32,214 bases of DNA from Pelodictyon luteolum (GTDB taxonomy: Bacteria > Bacteroidota > Chlorobiia > Chlorobiales > Chlorobiaceae). The DNA is taken from assembly GCA_020721225.1 (NCBI GenBank), contig DYNE01000027.1, positions 1 through 32,214 on the forward strand. The letters run 5' to 3'. The notes below the pieces were generated by a model, which saw nothing but the letters and a program-made list of their open reading frames with translations, was not told the origin of the DNA and did no database searches. Below, one piece after another: positions 7,337-32,145 of this stretch (its first letter is position 1; every line of letters begins with the position of its first letter). The translations under genes were made by a program, and so were the position numbers.

Positions 7337-7628
7337 TGTGGCTGCAAGCGGAAAGAAGCGGAGATTTGTCGAAAACCTTCTTGAACAGGAGATTTATTTT
7401 TTCGACACGCATGGTGAACTCATGCAGCGCCTTCGGAAATGCACCGAATATCGATAGCTTGAAATCACACCCGTAAACTGGTTGAACGGCAGATTTTTTT
7501 CAGGATGTTTTTTCGCTTGGAGAAAATGCGCTCTGTATGATACCTTGAGGGTTTGCTGCCAAAGGGGAAAATGCTTTTCAATTTTTGACTTCCGGATCAT
7601 TATGATAGTGTCGCAACCATAAGGTTGA
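7337..7628. other. No confident gene; probable decayed DNA
   Basis: No convincing gene is visible between the beta-lactamase and the ORF-3-like fragment. Plus-strand frames are broken by frequent stops. One frame running from 7339 to about 7457 gives a plausible but unrecognised 39-residue stretch. A minus-strand open frame (7394-7723) has no family resemblance and overlaps the remnant that follows. The stretch is AT-richer than its left neighbour. Confidence 0.4.
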
Positions 7629-7775
7629 CGACTGAAAATCACCTTGACTGGGGCGACTCCTTCGATATGGCGACAGTTTCCGGTTTCATCGGAGATGCCT
7701 TGGATGAGGTCGGGGGATTCCATGACGATATTTCAGATGCGTATATCGAATTTTATGACCGGTTTTAAGCGATAA
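7629..7775 (+). pseudogene. Remnant of a pRiA4b ORF-3-like gene
   Basis: Starting just after a TGA, the plus strand reads LKITLTGATPSIWRQFPVSS and on to a TAA at 7773-7775. This matches the opening of plasmid pRiA4b ORF-3 family proteins, which begin like (Y/Q)LKITL.G..P.IWRR..VP. Those proteins are normally much longer, continuing with a W-x-x-x-H-L-H-x-F region that is absent here. There is no upstream start codon, so it reads as a decayed 5' fragment. It ends 3 nt before the helicase ATG. The match is from memory, hence moderate confidence. Confidence 0.45.
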
Positions 7776-7778
7776 TAA

Positions 7779-10700
7779 ATGATTGCCTTGCATTGTTCGA
7801 TCCTGGAGGGAAAACCGATGCTCTGGAGTGAGGGTCGTGTTCCGGGAGATATCAAAGAACTTCGCCGTGCGCTCAAGGCAATCGGCGTGACCTTTACGAT
7901 TCGCAAGCCAATGACGAGAGAGGTTGTTGCATGGCTTCCTTGCCGGGGGGAGGAGCGGGTGCCTTCTTCGCCATTGATTGGTGATGAGCCTGATAAACGC
8001 CGAAAATCATCTCTCAAGCCCTTTACGATCATCGCGCTTCCTCTTGAAATTCCCTTGAGCCTTGCATTGTTCGCTTGCGCTCGCGGTGGCAATATCCCTG
8101 GTACAGGTACTTTTTTCGGGACATCTTTTTTATGGACAAAGAATCTTTTCGAGGTCGCCGCGCATATTGTTTCGTCTCAGAGGTATCTCCCTTCGCTTGT
8201 TTGCGGTAACATGCAATGGGATGGACGCTGGGTTCCTTATCCTGAAAATTCCGTTGCATCGCGACTCGATACACTGACGGAAACTATGCCTCCTGTATGC
8301 CGTTGTCTTTCATCGGACGGAAAGGCGCATCCGGAAACCTCAAGAAAAGAGGTACAGGCAGAGCTGTTGCAGGGTTTGGTGGATTCACTTGTCCGGTTTT
8401 CCTTCGATACCACGAGTCGCAAAGCGTTAAAGCCATTGACGGTACATGACGCCTGGATGGAATCGCTTTCAGGCAACATCCCTGAAATAAACTGGGAACG
8501 CAAGCCGGAAATCAAAGCTTTTGCCCGGGAGCTTGCAAAGTGGCGCCGCCCGCTGGATGTTTATGCCCAATCTCCCTTCAATTTCTGCTTTCGCCTTGCA
8601 GAGCCTGCCCTCAAGGGGAAAAAAGATATCTGGCAGCTCACTTATCTGCTTCAGCTGAAAAGTGATCCGAGTCTGTTGCTTGAAGTCGGGGAACTCTGGA
8701 CTCCGGAAAGCGACGCATCACTACAGGCAAAGAGCTATGGGGTTGATTGTACGGAGTTCATGCTTATGGCGCTGGGACAGGCGGCGGCGCTGTACCCCGC
8801 AATCGTCGAAGGCTTGAAACCGAAAAAACCGGGTGGCCTGAAGCTCGATACCGAAGGGGCATTCAGGTTTCTTTCCGGGTATGCCGCCATTCTGCGAGGT
8901 GCCGGGTTTGTTGTCATGCTTCCGTCGTGGTGGGTTGGCAAGGGGCCGCTGAACAGGATGGGGATAAAGGTGCGCGTAAAAGCGCCGTCCATGAAGGGAA
9001 GTGGTAACGGCATGGGTCTTGATGAGCTGCTTTCATGCGATTATGCTGCGTCACTTGGCAGCGATGAGATCGATCTGGACGAACTTCGCCGTCTTGCCGG
9101 GCTGAAAATGCCTCTGGTCAGGGTGAGAGGGCAGTGGCGACAACTTGACCAGCGGGAACTTACCGAAGCGGTGCGTTTTCTTGAAAAACAGCGATCAGGC
9201 GAACTCAGCGCACGCGATGTTCTTGCAACGGCTTTTGGCACCGGTTCGATTGAGACCACTCTGGTAGCTCAATCTGTCGATGCCGACGGATGGATGCAGG
9301 ATCTTCTGAAAAAACTGAAAGGAGATACCCGTTTTGAACTGCTCTCGCAGCCGGATCGTTTTCAGGGAAAGCTTCGTGAATATCAGATGAAGGGGTATTC
9401 ATGGCTTGCTTTTCTGAGAACCTGGGGGCTCGGCGCCTGTCTGGCTGACGACATGGGACTTGGCAAGACGGTACAGACTCTCGCCCTTTTGCAGGAGGAG
9501 AGAAACAGGGGGGAAAAACGGCCGGTGCTGTTGATCAGCCCGACCTCGGTTGTCAACAACTGGAGAAAGGAAGCGGAACTGTTTACTCCCGATCTGCCGG
9601 TTCTTGTGCACCATGGAGCCGACCGGCATAAAACCGCTGCCTTCAGGAAAGCAGCAAATGCATCGGCTCTGGTGATCTCAAGCTATGGACTTTTGTTTCG
9701 TGATATAGCCACGTTGTCGAAAATGGAATGGGCCGGAGTTATTCTCGATGAAGCCCAGAACATCAAGAATCCCGAAACGAAACAGGCAAAAGCGGCCCGG
9801 ACATTGCACTCGGATTACCGGATAGCTCTTACCGGTACGCCGGTTGAAAATCATGTTGGCGACCTTTGGGCTCTGATGGATTTTCTCAATCCCGGTTTTC
9901 TTGGCAGTCAGACTTTTTTCAGGGAAAAATTTTTCTATCCGATTCAGTGGTATGGGGACAGCTCTGCCTCTGAAAGGCTGAAAGCCATGACGGCGCCATT
10001 CATTCTGCGCCGGCTTAAAACCGACAGATCCATCATTTCCGACTTGCCTGACAAGATCGAAATGAAGCAGTATTGTACCCTTACCAGGGAGCAGGCCTCA
10101 CTCTACAAGGCGGTTGTTGACGAACTGCAGGAGAGAATCGAAATGGCGGAGGGGATCGATCGAAGTGGCCTTGTTTTGGCATTGCTGGTTAAACTCAAGC
10201 AGGTATGCAATCATCCGGCGCAGTTTCTCGGAGACAATTCGACGGTTGAAAATCGTTCAGGCAAGCTGCAGCGCTTGACCGAACTGCTGAGTGAAATCCG
10301 TGAGAGCGGTGAACGCACGCTTGTTTTTACCCAGTTCATGGAGATGGGAAAGCTAATGCAGAACTATCTTCAGGAACTGTTCGGCGAAGAGGTGTTTTTT
10401 CTGCACGGCTCACTCGCCAGAAAAAAGCGTGACGAAATGATCGAAACTTTCCAGAATGATGATCATGCGCCACGAATTTTCATTCTTTCCCTGAAAGCGG
10501 GTGGTTCCGGTTTGAACCTGACCAAAGCCAACCATGTTATTCATTATGATCGCTGGTGGAATCCTGCAGTTGAAAACCAGGCGACAGACAGAGCGTTCCG
10601 TATCGGGCAGAAATACAATGTGGAGGTACATAAATTCATTACCGCAGGAACGCTTGAAGAGCGGATCGATGAAATGATCGAGAGAAAAACGGCAGTTTCC

Positions 10701-14815: not shown

Positions 14816-16219
14816 TTATTGAGGGATAACCTGGTTGTAAAGCGAATATCTGCCAAGAATGTTTCTTGTATAGTTGACTGGCATGATGCCGTTGCAATAA
14901 CCGAAATCAGTCACTTCATCGCGGTAGTAGAATGGGTCTGATTTCAGTTGCATGTACCGCTCGACGCTTCCTTCCCATACCTCCGGATCCCTTCCGTATT
15001 TACGGGCGAGTTCCTGTGCGTCACGAACATGGCCAGGCCCCGCATTGTATGAAGCGAGAATGAATCGTATGCGGTTTTTCGGATCGGGGATCTCCCGCCA
15101 CTCCTTGTGCAGATATTCAAGATAGAGCGTACCTGCTTTCATGTTGGCTTCCGGATCGAAGAGGTTGGTAATGCGGAACATCCGCGCGGTTCCAGGCATG
15201 AGCTGCATGAGGCCCATGGCTCCCGCCCATGAAACCGCCTGCGGATCGAATCGCGACTCTTCATAGAGCAGCGAAGCCAGAAGACGCCAATCCCAATCAA
15301 TGGTCTTTGCATATTTTTTTATCAAGGGATCGTAGACGGATATCTCTCCGGCTTTATCGGAATAGAAGGCCTGAATTGCCTGTTTACTGAAGGAGTACTG
15401 CTGCCGATAGTATTTATTTTGCAGAAGGTTTGTGTATGTTTTTGTTTTGTTATCGGCCAACCAGCGGTTCAGGGTTGCAAGCAGTTCAGGAGAGCGCTTT
15501 GATACTGTCCAGGCAAGCGGCATGTTGTCGCTGATGATGGTTTCGAAGTCCAGATCGGGATATAGGGAGCTGTGCGCTTCCGCAATATTTCTGTCGGCAA
15601 TCGTGTAGGCGATTTTCCCTTCTGAAACCTCACGGATCAACTCTCCGGTACTTTTGGATCCCGGCACGGTAAGAATATTGAGATCGATCTTTATCGAACC
15701 CTCGATTTTTTTCAGTTGGGTGTAATAAGCAGAACCCGATCTGACATGGACTGTTTTGCCGTCAAGTTCCCCGAGTTTTCTTATTGGTTTGTCATTGCTT
15801 GTTTTTTTCTGAACGAGCACCTGACGGGTATAACTGATAGGTTCGGTAAAATTCACTTCAAGCTTTCTGATACCGGTGATCGTGAGATTGTGGGCTACGA
15901 GATCACCTTTTCCGGCTCTGAGGGCTAAAAGGAGGCGGTTCAGGTCGCGAACCAGCACAACTTCCATTTCCACACCGATATCGTCACTGAACTTCCTGGC
16001 AAGTTCATAGCTGTAACCCATCGGAGTCCCTTTATAGATAAAGTAGTTGATCGGATCGTAGGCGATGATAACCCTGAGTTTTCCTGATTTTTTTATGGCA
16101 TCGAGATCTTGCGGCGTACGCAGGAAGTTGCAGAAGGCGAGGGCGAGCAGAACAACCGCCGATGCGATACCTGCAAAAATGGTACGGTTCAAATGGTAAG
16201 GAGGCTTTGCCTTTTTCAT
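14816..16219 (-). CDS. MltF-like membrane-bound lytic transglycosylase
   Basis: A 467-residue protein that would cleave glycan strands of peptidoglycan. An N-terminal membrane anchor (about 12-33) is followed by a periplasmic solute-binding-protein-3 domain (about 45-270, with [11 protein letters not shown] and [15 protein letters not shown]). A C-terminal SLT domain follows, with Glu321 in [20 protein letters not shown] as catalytic acid and [10 protein letters not shown] as the NAGP-type motif. This two-domain order is that of MltF, where the binding domain senses muropeptides. Its ATG overlaps the ParA stop by 4 nt, so it is the last gene of a CHAD-ParA-MltF unit. The catalytic motif is intact. 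Confidence 0.93.
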
Positions 16220-16965
16220 AGTGAGGGCAAGACAGCATCAGATAGTTCGCTCCACAAGCGCTGATAAGCTTTTGCAGCTATGGCCGACGGCAGTACGGCA
16301 TTGAGTGGTGCCCGGTAGATGCCCATCTTTTCAACTTCAGAGTTATAGGGAATGCTCTGTTTGAGAAAATCCGGCTGACTTTCACAACTCTCTATAATGT
16401 CGCGATGCATTGACTTCCGTTTTTCGACCATCGTGAAAAAGGCCTTTATTTTCGATGCGTCGAGACCGCTGCTCTCGAAAAATCCTTTAAGCTGCTCATA
16501 GGTACGTATCGAAAGTGTTGTGGGAATAACCGGCACGAGAATGATATCGGCAGCGGCGAAGATGCTTTCCGAAAAAAGCGTGAGGTTCGGCGGACAGTCA
16601 AAGAAAATATACCGGTATTCATCACTCAGTTCTTCAAGGTTTTTTCTGAGTTTTTTCTGTGGTTTTTTCTCTTCCAGAAGTTCAAGATCGAGGTTGCGAT
16701 AAGAGAAGTCGGAGGGAAGCAGATCGAGCTGATCGTAGTCGGTTGCCTTGATGTTCCGGTAAATTTTTTTGCTTCCCTGCAGAAATTTGGTGCTGTTGTA
16801 TTTTTCACCGGCAGCTATTCTGAAGTAGTAGGAACTTGCGCCTTGAGGATCGAGATCGCAGATCAGCGTAGAGAGGGAATTCCGGGATGCAAGATAGGAG
16901 AGGTTGACCGCCGCTGCGGTTTTTCCTACTCCGCCCTTGATGCTGTAAAGTGCAATGGTTTTCAT
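16216..16965 (-). CDS. ParA/MinD-type P-loop ATPase (orphan)
   Basis: A 249-residue ParA-like ATPase. The deviant Walker A KGGVGKT is at residues 10-16 (signature Lys10), DLDPQGASS follows near 38, and Walker B IFFDCPPN lies near 98. Later, VPVIPTTLS and the [13 protein letters not shown] stretch fit ParA proteins. No ParB or parS-like repeat is near, so chromosome or plasmid partition is unlikely. Orphan ParAs often position other cargo such as carboxysomes, chemoreceptors or storage granules. It sits 6 nt after the CHAD gene and overlaps the transglycosylase gene by 4 nt, so the three are probably co-translated. Cargo is inferred, not shown. Confidence 0.92.
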
Positions 16966-16971
16966 GTTCGA

Positions 16972-18705
16972 TCATCGATTGAGAAGCTCCGTGACAAGAG
17001 TTTCGGTTTCGTCGTTATCAAAGCGCCTGAATGTTTGTTTGAAAGCTTTGCGTTCTTTTTCCTGCCGGCGATGGAGCATAACGATAAGTCCGCCAAGCGC
17101 AGCAGCCAGTTCAGGATTGGCCGGTTTCGTTTTCATGGAATCGATATATCTGTACAGCGCATGCTGCTGTACGGCCAGATCGACAAAGGCGCCGAGGTTT
17201 TCCTGAAGTTCCTTTAGATGCCTGACGACGGGGCTGATGGTTTTTTCGGGAAAAAGCGATGAAAAGAACTCAAGAAGATAACGCAGCTTTTTGCAGTCTA
17301 TCCTTAGCGCGTGCAGTTCGCTGTCGGAAGCCTCGGCAGGAATGGCTCTGCCATGGCGGATGACTTTTTTCCAGGCTTTGCCAATGGTTTTTACTGCAAC
17401 GCTTATGCCCGGTTCCTGGCCGGGATCGGATTCTCGCTCTGTGCCGGGAGCATTGAGGGCATCGTTCAGAAGCAATTGCCATTCGTCGAGCATCGTGCGG
17501 TAGGTTTTTGAGCGCAGAAAGTCGCCAAATCGCTTCAGCTCGACTTTTCGGGTTGCTTCGAGTTCCCCGAAAAACGGAGCAAGGTGAACGGCAAGCAATG
17601 GTGGGAGAGTATCGAAGTAAGCTGTTTTTTTCAGCATATAAACGTCGCAATCCCTGAGCGTGTTGCATTTTTTTCCGATATCGCTGAATGCCTGACGGTA
17701 TCTGAGGATTATTTCCGGAGGGAAAATGCCTTTGATCTGGCTTAGCAGGGAACGGGTTCTCCTCAGTGCTACCCGGTAGTCATGCAGAAACTCTGTGTCG
17801 ATACTGCCAAGAATGCCCGGTTCATTGCTTTTCATGATGCCATGCGTAAACAGCAGAAGTTCGGCGGCTGAGATTCTGACAGGATTGCCGGGGAGAAGCG
17901 CAAGACGGATTTTCGGGTTGTAATCGTTGACCCGCACACCTGCCGAGTCCATCAGCAGCATGAACATGCTCTTGACATCGAGTCGGCTCTCCGTACCGAA
18001 ATGCTCTTCGAGCTTACGGGAGATCATGAGATTTTCATCCTGAAACCCTTTCAGCGGCTTCAGTGTGATCAGCCCGGCAATCCGTTCCTTCCGGTTTCCT
18101 TTTATAAGAAATAATGTTTCAGCGAAAAGAAATCCGGTCGTTTTTTCAATCTTGTCAAGAATCCTGAACGTTACCATATCGCTCTCGATGGTGCACCTTT
18201 TCATGAGCGCTCTGAGGCCGGCAAGGGACTCGAGTCTGTTTCTGATTGTACCGAACGGAAGAGTTGAGGGCAGAAAATGGGATGGGGACGTTTTTAAAGA
18301 GAGTGAGGCGCTTTCAACGCCGCTCTGCAGGTCGAGTAGAGAAATCGTTCGGTTTTTAACGACAACGGTCGTTTGGTGCTCGAAACAGCGCCAATCAAAG
18401 GTATCGTAATAACTTCGCCTTTCTTTTCTGCGAAATTCTTCGTGAAGATTCAGATAGGGTTGAAACAGTACCGTGAGAGACGGGGTAGCGACTCCTTCGG
18501 GAGACTTGAAGCATATGGTATTCAGGAGTGCTGCCATCTTCCCTGCATTTATGGGCACCTCGATAAAGTTATTTCGCTCAAATGCTGCGTTGTCCAGATT
18601 ATTCCGGACTCCGTCCGCCCTGCACCCTGATCGTTTATCACACTGAAATAGAGGTGACCTTATGATCGTAAGTGATTTTTTCAATCTGTAGAAAAAATAT
18701 AGCAA
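16972..18705 (-). CDS. CHAD-domain protein, possibly with CYTH-like N-terminus
   Basis: Up to 577 residues. The C-terminal half is a CHAD domain of two helical repeats, each with a conserved His and basic helix: FLHDYRVALRRTRSLLSQIK (about 310-330) and ELHALRIDCKKLRYLLEFF (about 470-490). CHAD proteins bind polyphosphate and localise to polyphosphate granules. The N-terminal part (about 46-290) is in the place of a CYTH phosphatase domain but lacks a clear ExExK motif, so it may be degenerate or unrelated. The start is uncertain: the full frame opens with a TTG at 18705; GTG 18558 or ATG 18537 would remove about 50 unconserved residues. First gene of the minus-strand unit. Confidence 0.85.
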   Translation of the reverse strand: MLYFFYRLKKSLTIIRSPLFQCDKRSGCRADGVRNNLDNAAFERNNFIEVPINAGKMAALLNTICFKSPEGVATPSLTVLFQPYLNLHEEFRRKERRSYYDTFDWRCFEHQTTVVVKNRTISLLDLQSGVESASLSLKTSPSHFLPSTLPFGTIRNRLESLAGLRALMKRCTIESDMVTFRILDKIEKTTGFLFAETLFLIKGNRKERIAGLITLKPLKGFQDENLMISRKLEEHFGTESRLDVKSMFMLLMDSAGVRVNDYNPKIRLALLPGNPVRISAAELLLFTHGIMKSNEPGILGSIDTEFLHDYRVALRRTRSLLSQIKGIFPPEIILRYRQAFSDIGKKCNTLRDCDVYMLKKTAYFDTLPPLLAVHLAPFFGELEATRKVELKRFGDFLRSKTYRTMLDEWQLLLNDALNAPGTERESDPGQEPGISVAVKTIGKAWKKVIRHGRAIPAEASDSELHALRIDCKKLRYLLEFFSSLFPEKTISPVVRHLKELQENLGAFVDLAVQQHALYRYIDSMKTKPANPELAAALGGLIVMLHRRQEKERKAFKQTFRRFDNDETETLVTELLNR

Positions 18706-27812: not shown

Positions 27813-29951
27813 ATGGAACAGCAAAACGTAACAACTGAAACCGCTCCGTCGCTGCCGGACCTTCGCGACCCCGCGTACTATATCAACAGGGAGTTGAGCT
27901 GGATCGAGTTCAACCAGAGGGTGCTGGAAGAAGCGCTGGTGCCCGCCGCCCATCCACTTCTGGAGCGAGCCAAGTTCATCTCGATTTTCAGCTCCAATCT
28001 CGATGAATATTTTATGATCCGTGTTGCCGGTATCGAAGATCAGATAGATGCCGGTATTCAGGAGCGAACCATCGACGGCCTGACACCTTCGGAGCAGCTC
28101 GAAAAGATCCGATCAAGAATCCTGCTGCAGCTTCATCTGCGTAACGACTGTTTTTATAACGATATTCTGCCGGCGCTGGCCGAAAAAGGTTTGGAGTTTA
28201 TCCGTTTTGCCGATATGAGCACCGAAAACCAGGAGGTTCTGCGCCTCTATTTTCGGCAGGAAATTTTTCCTGTGCTGACCCCTCTGGCTTTCGATACCGG
28301 CCACCCGTTTCCGTTTCTCTCGAATCTCTCCCTGAATCTCGCAATCGAGCTGGAGGACGAGGAGAGCTGCACGCATAAATTCGCCCGAGTCAAGGTTCCG
28401 AGCATTTTGCCCCGATTGCTCTATCTCGAACGCATCGAGAATTTAGTGTTCGAGGATGGCGTTTTTCGTTTTCTGTGGCTCGAAGATCTCATAGCCAACA
28501 ACCTCGATCTGTTGTTTCCGAAAATGAAAATCATCAACTCGCATCTGTTCAGGGTTATCCGTAACGCCGACATGGAAATCGAAGAGGATGAAGCCGGAGA
28601 TCTTCTCGAAACAATAGAGCAGGGAATACGTTCCAGACGTTACGGCAAGGTTGTTCGTCTCGATATCGGGCCGGAAATGCCCGATTCGGTCAGAAAACTG
28701 CTGATGAACAATCTTGATGTGACTGAACGGAACATCTATGAAATATCGGGGGTATTGGGTCTCTCCTGCCTTATCGATCTCCTCAGGGTCGACCGCCCGG
28801 ATCTCAAGGATGAACCCTTCGTACCGGTTAACAAGATAGATGAACAGTTCGAGGGCAATGTATTCAGTGCCGTCAGTGCCAAAGATCGTCTTCTCTATCA
28901 TCCCTACGACTCTTTCCAGCCGGTAGTGGATTTCGTCACCCAGGCTGCTGAAGATCCCGATGTGCTTTCAATCAAGCAGACTCTTTACCGGGTAGGAAGC
29001 AAATCTCCAATCGTCAAGGCGCTCATGAATGCCGTTGAACATGGCAAGCAGGTTGCCGTTCTGGTTGAACTTAAAGCCCGATTCGACGAAGAGAACAACA
29101 TCGTCTGGGCCAGAGCGCTTGAAGATGTCGGGGCTCATGTAATCTATGGGCTGCCGGGATTGAAGACCCATGCAAAACTTACCATGGTTGTCCGCAGGGA
29201 GCACCACAAACTGAAACGCTATCTGCATCTCGGTACCGGAAACTACAATACGGCAACCGGAAAAATCTATACCGATTACAGTCTTTTTACGGCAAACGAG
29301 CGTCTTGCAATGGAGGTTGCAGAACTGTTCAATGCCCTTACCGGTTACTCGAAATACACAGAGTACAAGAAACTTCTCGTATCGCCTATCAATACCAGAA
29401 AAAAAATCATCGGAATGATCGAGAGGGAGGTCGAACTGCACAGGAAAGAGGGCGGAGGCCGGATTATCATGAAAATGAACGCCCTTGTGGACGACAAAAC
29501 CATCAGGGCTCTGTATCGCGCATCCTGTGCGGGCGTCCGGATCGATCTTGTCGTGCGCGGCATCTGCTGTCTGAAGCCCGGTATTACCGGCGTCAGTGAC
29601 CATATTCGGGTGATCAGCATCATAGGAAGATTTCTTGAACACAGCCGCGCTTACTATTTTACAAATGGAGGGAAGTGTGAGTTGTATCTTGGCAGTGCCG
29701 ATATTATGCAGAGAAATCTCGACCACCGGGTTGAAACGCTCTTTCCCGTCCTTGATCGGGACATTATTCAGTTGGTAAAATCCGATCTTGAACTTATGCT
29801 CATCGATAACACCAAGTCATGGGAGATGCAACCGGACGGTTCGTATCGGAAAGTGAGCTGCGAGGGAGCGGAAATCAACAGCCAGAACATTTTTCTCAAT
29901 CAGTCGGCAAGAAGAAAGTTTTCAAAAAAATTTAAAGCAGAAGAGTCATGA
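27813..29951 (+). CDS. ppk1: Polyphosphate kinase 1
   Basis: A 712-residue enzyme making polyphosphate from ATP, membrane-associated. The N-terminal domain starts [19 protein letters not shown] and [15 protein letters not shown]. The catalytic C-terminal part has the two phospholipase-D-like His residues: His453 in LKTHAKL (phosphorylated His) and His610 in EHSRAYYF, 157 residues apart as in E. coli Ppk. [15 protein letters not shown] is also conserved. The stop overlaps rpiB by 4 nt. A CHAD protein, a family that binds polyphosphate, is encoded 9 kb upstream. Confidence 0.96.
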
Positions 29952-31179: not shown

Positions 31180-32145
31180 ATGCCGAGAGGAGCAAGACTT
31201 GACGCACCCGGGACGCTGCACCACGTGATGGTTCGCGGCATCGAAGGAAAATGCATCGTCGAAGATGATTCCGACCGCAACTATTTCGTTACCCGCCTGG
31301 GCATCGTAGCTGCGGCATCAGGCACAAACATCTATGCCTGGGCGCTGATGACCAACCATGCGCATATTCTTTTGAAAAGCGGACCGTCCGGTCTCTCCTC
31401 CTTTATGCGCAAACTCCTGACCGGCTATGCATCTTACTACAACCGAAGGCATAAACGGCATGGGCATCTGTTCCAGAACAGGTATAAATCGATTGTCTGC
31501 GACGAGAATGCCTATTTTCTCAAATTGGTCAGCTATATCCATCTCAATCCGTTACGAGCAGGTCTTGTCTGTTCGCTTGACGAACTTGAGCGCTATCCCT
31601 GGTGCGGCCATGCCGTCATCATGAAAATGATCCGGCGGGATTGGCAGGAACGGGCATATGTTCTTGGCTGTTTCGGAGATCAAGAATCTTCAGCCTGTAA
31701 AACATACCGTGAATATGTTGCGTCGGAATGTGGACTTGGTAGACAACCGGAGCTGACCGGAGGAGGATTGACCCGTTCTCTTGGCGGATGGTCGGAAGTC
31801 AAAGGGCAGCGGCAACGCGGAGAGAAATCCTTCAGTGACGAAAGAATACTGGGTAGTGAAGGATTTGTAAAAGAAATCCTGAAAGAAGCTGAAGAACATA
31901 GAAAAACCCGGTTTCCGGCCATACCGCTTGAACTCGAAGCCCAGAAGCGACTGGATGAGCTTTGTCGTGAAGCGGGAGTCTCGCTGTATGCGCTTCAGGG
32001 CGGAAGCCGTAATCGGACTTGTTCTTCGATACGCAGACAACTGGTGCGGGAGTATGTAGAAGAACTGGGAATGTCACATGCCGGGGCGGCGAGGTTGCTG
32101 GGTGTTTCTGCTTCAGCGGTGACTCAGATGCTCTTGAGGAAATAA
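31180..32145 (+). mobile_element. REP-associated tyrosine transposase (RAYT, Y1_Tnp)
   Basis: A 321-residue protein with an N-terminal IS200-like Y1 HUH domain. PRGARLDAPGTLHHVMVRGIEG opens it as in RAYTs, and the HUH pair is His60-Ala-His62 (TNHAHILL). The nucleophile Tyr is probably in GYASYYNRRH (83-91), and HGHLFQNRYKS and YIHLNPLRAGLV follow. The C-terminal 285-321 is a DnaA-like helix-turn-helix (MSHAGAARLLGVSASAVTQML). RAYTs cut single-stranded DNA at REP palindromes and are often single-copy and domesticated. All key residues are present. A group II intron end starts 15 nt after the stop. Confidence 0.9.

Follow-up and report, generated by a model that had tools for sequence, protein, structure and literature searches.

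A CHAD protein paired with its own ParA-type ATPase across bacteria and archaea is a candidate positioning system for polyphosphate granules

Bacteria very commonly contain inclusions in the form of polyphosphate (polyP) granules. With regard to their positioning, a 2025 review names AlgP as a factor, names no positioning ATPase and leaves the use of energy open (PMC13052382). AlgP of Pseudomonas aeruginosa produces a nucleoid-linked, even spacing of granules, the same outcome that we propose below for a pair of CHAD and ParA proteins; however, it is a histone H1-like tether and not an ATPase, and is unrelated to the pair in sequence (PMC9239181). In its gene arrangement the pair resembles McdAB, where a dedicated ParA-type ATPase gene also lies beside the gene of a cargo-binding protein and the cargo is not DNA. 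It differs from McdAB in that the proposed cargo is the polyP granule, the partner is a TTM-CHAD protein and not McdB, and the partner gene is upstream of parA with no carboxysome genes nearby; by Pfam, neither an McdB-like partner nor carboxysome genes were found in the window or among the neighbours read. Polyphosphate and CHAD are both missing from a study that examined ParA/MinD cargos by gene neighbourhood (PMC10241942), and our literature search, which mostly covered sources other than subscription papers and preprints, retrieved no published report of a CHAD-ParA system or of ParA-based positioning of polyP granules.

The cargo-binding side is better described. The CHAD protein of C. 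tepidum, CtCHAD, binds polyP with a KD of 0.15-1.9 uM, and binding is cut in mutants of H253, R256, R260, R296, R418 and Y419 (PMC6537752). In green sulfur bacteria, a cell can contain as many as three polyP granules (PMC11269200). The protein studied here shares an orthologous long CHAD domain with CtCHAD and a TTM-CHAD architecture with E. coli YgiF, but it is set apart from YgiF and from the CHAD phosins, CtCHAD included, by a link to ParA that is undescribed in the literature examined and by the lack of the TTM motif EXEXK in the window protein.

The window, the whole stretch of 32,214 nucleotides of Pelodictyon luteolum DNA that was analysed, carries the genes listed in Table 1. Their coordinates agree with an earlier note on this DNA, which had described three minus-strand genes, CHAD, ParA and MltF, with a 6-nt gap between the first two and a 4-nt overlap between the last two, and a ppk1 gene about 9 kb away (9.1 kb from the CHAD ORF). 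Because Met57 of the CHAD ORF (18537) is nearly invariant in the alignment of relatives, while the part upstream is unconserved, translation probably starts at this codon to give a 521-aa product, the TTG at 18705 being too early. Scans for sigma-70 promoters and terminators as operon signals at the locus gave no excess over shuffles. The 2.6 Mb genome holds one CHAD gene, one ppk1 and two clear ParA matches, namely the CHAD-linked one and a Soj-like one.

Table 1. Features of the window, with positions counted from its first letter
Feature	Position	Strand	Basis or remark
CHAD ORF	16972-18705	-	as first called, TTG start at 18705
CHAD protein, 521 aa from Met57	16972..18537	-	Pfam CHAD, alignment-based start, AlphaFold, VIA-align
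Upstream open-frame extension of CHAD, TTG start, probably untranslated	18538..18705	-	unconserved in relatives
ParA-type ATPase, CHAD-linked subfamily	16216..16965	-	Pfam, HMM survey, tree, Soj/ParA fold
MltF-like lytic transglycosylase, co-directional accessory neighbour	14816..16219	-	Pfam SBP_bac_3 + SLT
ppk1, polyphosphate kinase	27813..29951	+	sole ppk1 found in genome; beside CHAD-ParA in many others
IS200-like (Y1) transposase domain protein	31180-32145		near contig end

The CHAD protein matches Pfam CHAD (PF05235) at an E-value of about 3e-50 to 4e-50, and the C. tepidum CHAD structures 3E0S, 6QV7 and 6QVA at about 1e-74. In its AlphaFold model (pLDDT 89.4) a TTM/CYTH-type fold (residues ~1-205) is followed by the long CHAD domain (~206-521). 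Superposed by VIA-align, the predicted CHAD domain fits 6QV7 with a Z of 37.7 and an rmsd of 1.9 over 312 residues, and residues ~2-200 match TTM enzymes with a Z of 11-13. The equivalents of the six CtCHAD residues, numbered H252, R255, R259, R295, R419 and Y420 in our 26-sequence comparison, are invariant in all 26 CHAD proteins of the module, archaea included; with its CHAD domain and these basic polyP-binding residues, the window protein is classed from its sequence as a putative phosin. The N-terminal fold was seen by structure comparison only, with no Pfam CYTH domain found by sequence in any of the 26 proteins. We also grade this triphosphate-tunnel domain, as read from its motifs, as catalytically degenerate, because the N-terminal end of the window protein lacks EXEXK, a motif expected on the first strand; the pattern occurs within the first 45 residues in 1 of the 26 members.

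The neighbouring ATPase matches Pfam AAA_31/CbiA at 2.7e-33 and has the features of the ParA/MinD superfamily: the deviant Walker A motif KGGxxK[ST], the catalytic Asp of DxDPQG, the Walker B Asp and a Soj-like fold. The nucleotide motifs are kept in the alignment (K10-G-G-V-G-K15-T16, D37/D39 and D123, all invariant), and the predicted model (pLDDT 83.5) finds its best Foldseek match in Soj/ParA, with a TM of ~0.8. Fold and motifs are thus common to ParABS/Soj and to the CHAD-linked ParA, but the latter differs in three respects. No ParB was found among the window neighbours, in agreement with the earlier description of a ParA without ParB, and the partner slot is taken by CHAD. In the tree, all members of the subfamily form one 100/100 clade on a long branch, separate from the Soj-like rows, and linkage to CHAD extends over nearly all of its branches. 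Finally, EKMG..R occupies the region of the AECPS/SEAPS-type segment of the Soj-like rows. Conserved lysines are present in the subfamily, and in most members the alignment stops a few residues past the last core helix, the place at which MinD carries its C-terminal amphipathic membrane-targeting helix.

The third gene behaves differently. Its product carries SBP_bac_3 (1e-19) and SLT (1.6e-25) domains, and its near full-length match to the NCBIfam equivalog NF008112 reaches 313 bits, below the cut-off of 354. The earlier note had suggested that MltF ties granules to wall turnover or division, a trio model that could appeal to the 4-nt overlap with ParA and to the fact that MltF, where located in Chlorobium, comes after the CHAD-linked ParA (in six of the loci examined closely, namely the window, L032, L033, L057, L058 and L059, and also in L068, L107 and L230). 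However, a single search of 23 genus genomes detected the homologue in three and missed it in 20, nearly all of which carry CHAD and ParA. Two genomes of family f3 have MltF and are devoid of the CHAD-linked ParA, and at the sensitivity used no MltF was found in the CHAD-ParA loci outside Chlorobiaceae. Since MltF is rare in the genus and is found apart from ParA, the wall-linked part of the proposal is not supported, and we reject MltF as a core member; the trio model strikes us as barely plausible. MltF is probably a co-transcribed passenger in some Chlorobium lineages. The three ORFs of the unit claimed earlier are therefore real, but the conserved unit is the CHAD-ParA pair, the third gene being lineage-specific.

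Within Chlorobiaceae the pair is kept in nearly all genomes sampled. ParA was present in 36 of 37 genus genomes, mostly at 67-86% identity, the copy in G019 being interrupted by a stop. In the genus loci read, CHAD immediately precedes ParA in the same orientation, and the commonest junction is a 4-nt overlap, often of the ATGA type. Adjacency has been preserved despite relocation among several unrelated genomic contexts: one type of neighbourhood has a BMP lipoprotein, MltF and an SDR; another ppk1, phoU, an LRR protein and an alkaline phosphatase; another Pst-type permeases with an ABC ATPase, phoU, a HAD phosphatase and a PhoR-like kinase; another phoU, LRR and AdoMet synthetase; and further types exist. 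A ParA with no CHAD beside it occurs in a small lineage (G033, G016 and G005, and, judged from 1.5-kb flanks, G915, G911 and G978); CHAD sits at another locus in the three genomes checked. Of 65 Chlorobiaceae genomes sampled, the four without ParA are also without CHAD and have kept ppk1; two of these four are <90% complete.

The phosphate-related neighbours raise the question of whether CHAD-ParA senses polyP and feeds PhoR/PhoU in phosphate-starvation signalling. Many Chlorobium genomes do have phoU, pstCA/ABC, phoB/phoR-like and alkaline phosphatase genes next to the pair, but these neighbours are variable and mostly missing outside Chlorobiaceae, and neither the CHAD nor the ParA protein has a signalling domain; we attach very little weight to this possibility.

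A CHAD-based search of GTDB genomes extended the pair far beyond the family, to loci of KSB1, Calditrichota, Deferribacteres-labelled genomes, Desulfobulbaceae, Chloroflexi, Gemmatimonadota, Lentisphaerae and methane archaea. Where the DNA continues downstream of CHAD, as it does in 20 of the non-Chlorobiaceae loci, a ParA is always present, at 45-58% identity; L127 and L134, which show no ParA, were not treated as exceptions, as their DNA stops shortly past CHAD. The converse survey used an HMM built from alignment A4, on genomes of the window's phylum and four other phyla, and outside Bacteroidota CHAD adjoins the ParA found in 31 of 33 cases: 14/14 in KSB1/Calditrichota, 7/8 in Chloroflexota, 2/2 in Halobacteriota and 8/9 in Desulfobacterota. 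In the last phylum (198 genomes), ParA accompanies 8 of 9 long CHADs and none of 10 short ones, and the nine ParA matches score 284-402 bits with the next tier at 146 bits, a ranking that is not blind, the HMM having been trained on CHAD-linked ParAs. Because of this score gap, CHAD-linked ParAs are classed, on alignment and tree, as a discrete subfamily. A lack of recurrence in other genomes was among the outcomes that the earlier note had named as refuting its idea; the pair does recur, in several bacterial phyla and in archaea.

Linkage to polyP synthesis accompanies this recurrence. In 10 of the 22 non-Chlorobiaceae CHAD loci, ppk1 lies inside the ~8-kb flanks, often directly adjoining; by a rough reckoning, <1% of loci would have ppk1 by chance within 16 kb of a 4-Mb genome. 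A role in regulation would account for such linkage to ppk1 and phosphate genes no less well than one in positioning. In a non-spatial reading, ParA would be a BcsQ-like ATPase that acts with TTM-CHAD in the assembly or regulation of PPK1, or of granule nucleation and size, and so controls the amount of polyP or the growth of granules and not where they lie. BcsQ, likewise a ParA-family ATPase tied to polymer synthesis, is indeed among the Pfam and structural matches of ParA. Its role is in cellulose secretion with other partners, though, and its matches to the CHAD-linked ParA are weaker than those of Soj/ParA; the neighbouring genes showed no BcsR/BcsE-like partner, and a few pair-bearing genomes gave no PPK1 match (6 of 26 CHAD-ParA genomes checked, some of them draft MAGs, in a search that covered PPK1 only). 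We consider the BcsQ-like reading unlikely, if still a serious contender.

Taken together, a TTM-CHAD protein orthologous to a proven polyP binder is coupled to a dedicated ParA across phyla and in archaea, often near ppk1 or phosphate genes. Adjacency in such distant bacteria and archaea, often with ppk1, points to a machine for spacing or sharing granules, and we hypothesize, with a probability of roughly 0.6, that CHAD-ParA is a two-component system for the positioning and inheritance of polyP granules. The CHAD domain would coat the granule and serve as its tag, with the CHAD protein as the partner of ParA; ParA-ATP dimers would bind the nucleoid; and the degenerate TTM domain, the N-terminus of the CHAD protein or both may provide a ParB/McdB-like contact that triggers ATP hydrolysis by ParA, although no obvious conserved basic N-terminal tail of the McdB/ParB kind is apparent in the alignment. 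Granules would then follow and deplete a ParA gradient and so be held at a distance from one another, spaced out and divided between the daughter cells, as carboxysomes are by McdAB. Points against this reading, besides the lack of such a tail, are the EKMG..R in place of the Soj-type segment, the sister clade of ParAs with no CHAD next to them and the CHAD-ParA genomes that gave no PPK1 match. The fuller version, in which ATP-driven TTM-CHAD and its own ParA subfamily position and partition granules in bacteria and archaea with the retired triphosphate-tunnel domain as the ParA-activating adaptor, is to our minds an even bet. For the earlier idea that CHAD tags the granule and ParA spaces it, the comparative support is strong (recurrence of a conserved pair, often in translational coupling, ppk1/pho linkage and polyP binding by the orthologue), but spacing itself is a deduction from it.

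Alternatively, ParA might act on DNA, with CHAD-coated polyP as a passive nucleoid anchor or a phosphate/cation buffer, so that the pair would link granules to chromosome organisation. In Caulobacter the granules follow the segregating chromosome, and in Pseudomonas they associate with the nucleoid (PMC13052382), which would suit this idea, but a second, Soj-like ParA match is present in the genome and the ParA studied here is tied to CHAD and ppk1, not to ParB genes; it seems to us improbable. If the positioning reading holds, polyP granules would gain the motor and adaptor missing so far, the ParA family a new cargo and orphan ParAs a role. C. tepidum is a directly testable case, as the structure of its CHAD in complex with polyP has been determined. 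Genome G880 encodes a CHAD with 100% identity to 3E0S across the 310 compared residues, and this genome with the exact crystallised CtCHAD sequence has the gene order ppk1-LRR-CHAD-ParA.

Further observations concern relatives and neighbours of the pair. Of the six ParA matches in Bacteroidota other than Chlorobiaceae, one is CHAD-linked. A sister clade of the ParA (family f9, G116 and G1010) has no adjacent CHAD, and G116 is without any CHAD; sister-clade ParAs with no CHAD neighbour were read in L212, L214, L215 and L216 (family f9) and in L222. A histidine phosphatase that looks SixA-like by eye adjoins CHAD in L213 (4014-4508), and another lies near a subfamily ParA in a CHAD-less genome (L217:5000-5491). 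Chlorobium also has a paralogue locus, PhoU-LRR-CHAD-PPK1 without ParA (L071, L078 and L112), and some genomes have both CHAD types. In most Chlorobiaceae, a gene for an LRR-like protein separates CHAD from ppk1 or phoU (L052:6914-8017; L233 ~7573-8358); its product is possibly a further granule protein. In one Chlorobium lineage, a gene upstream of HAD-CHAD-ParA (L060:6722-6943) encodes a conserved protein of 74 aa that matches nothing in Pfam.
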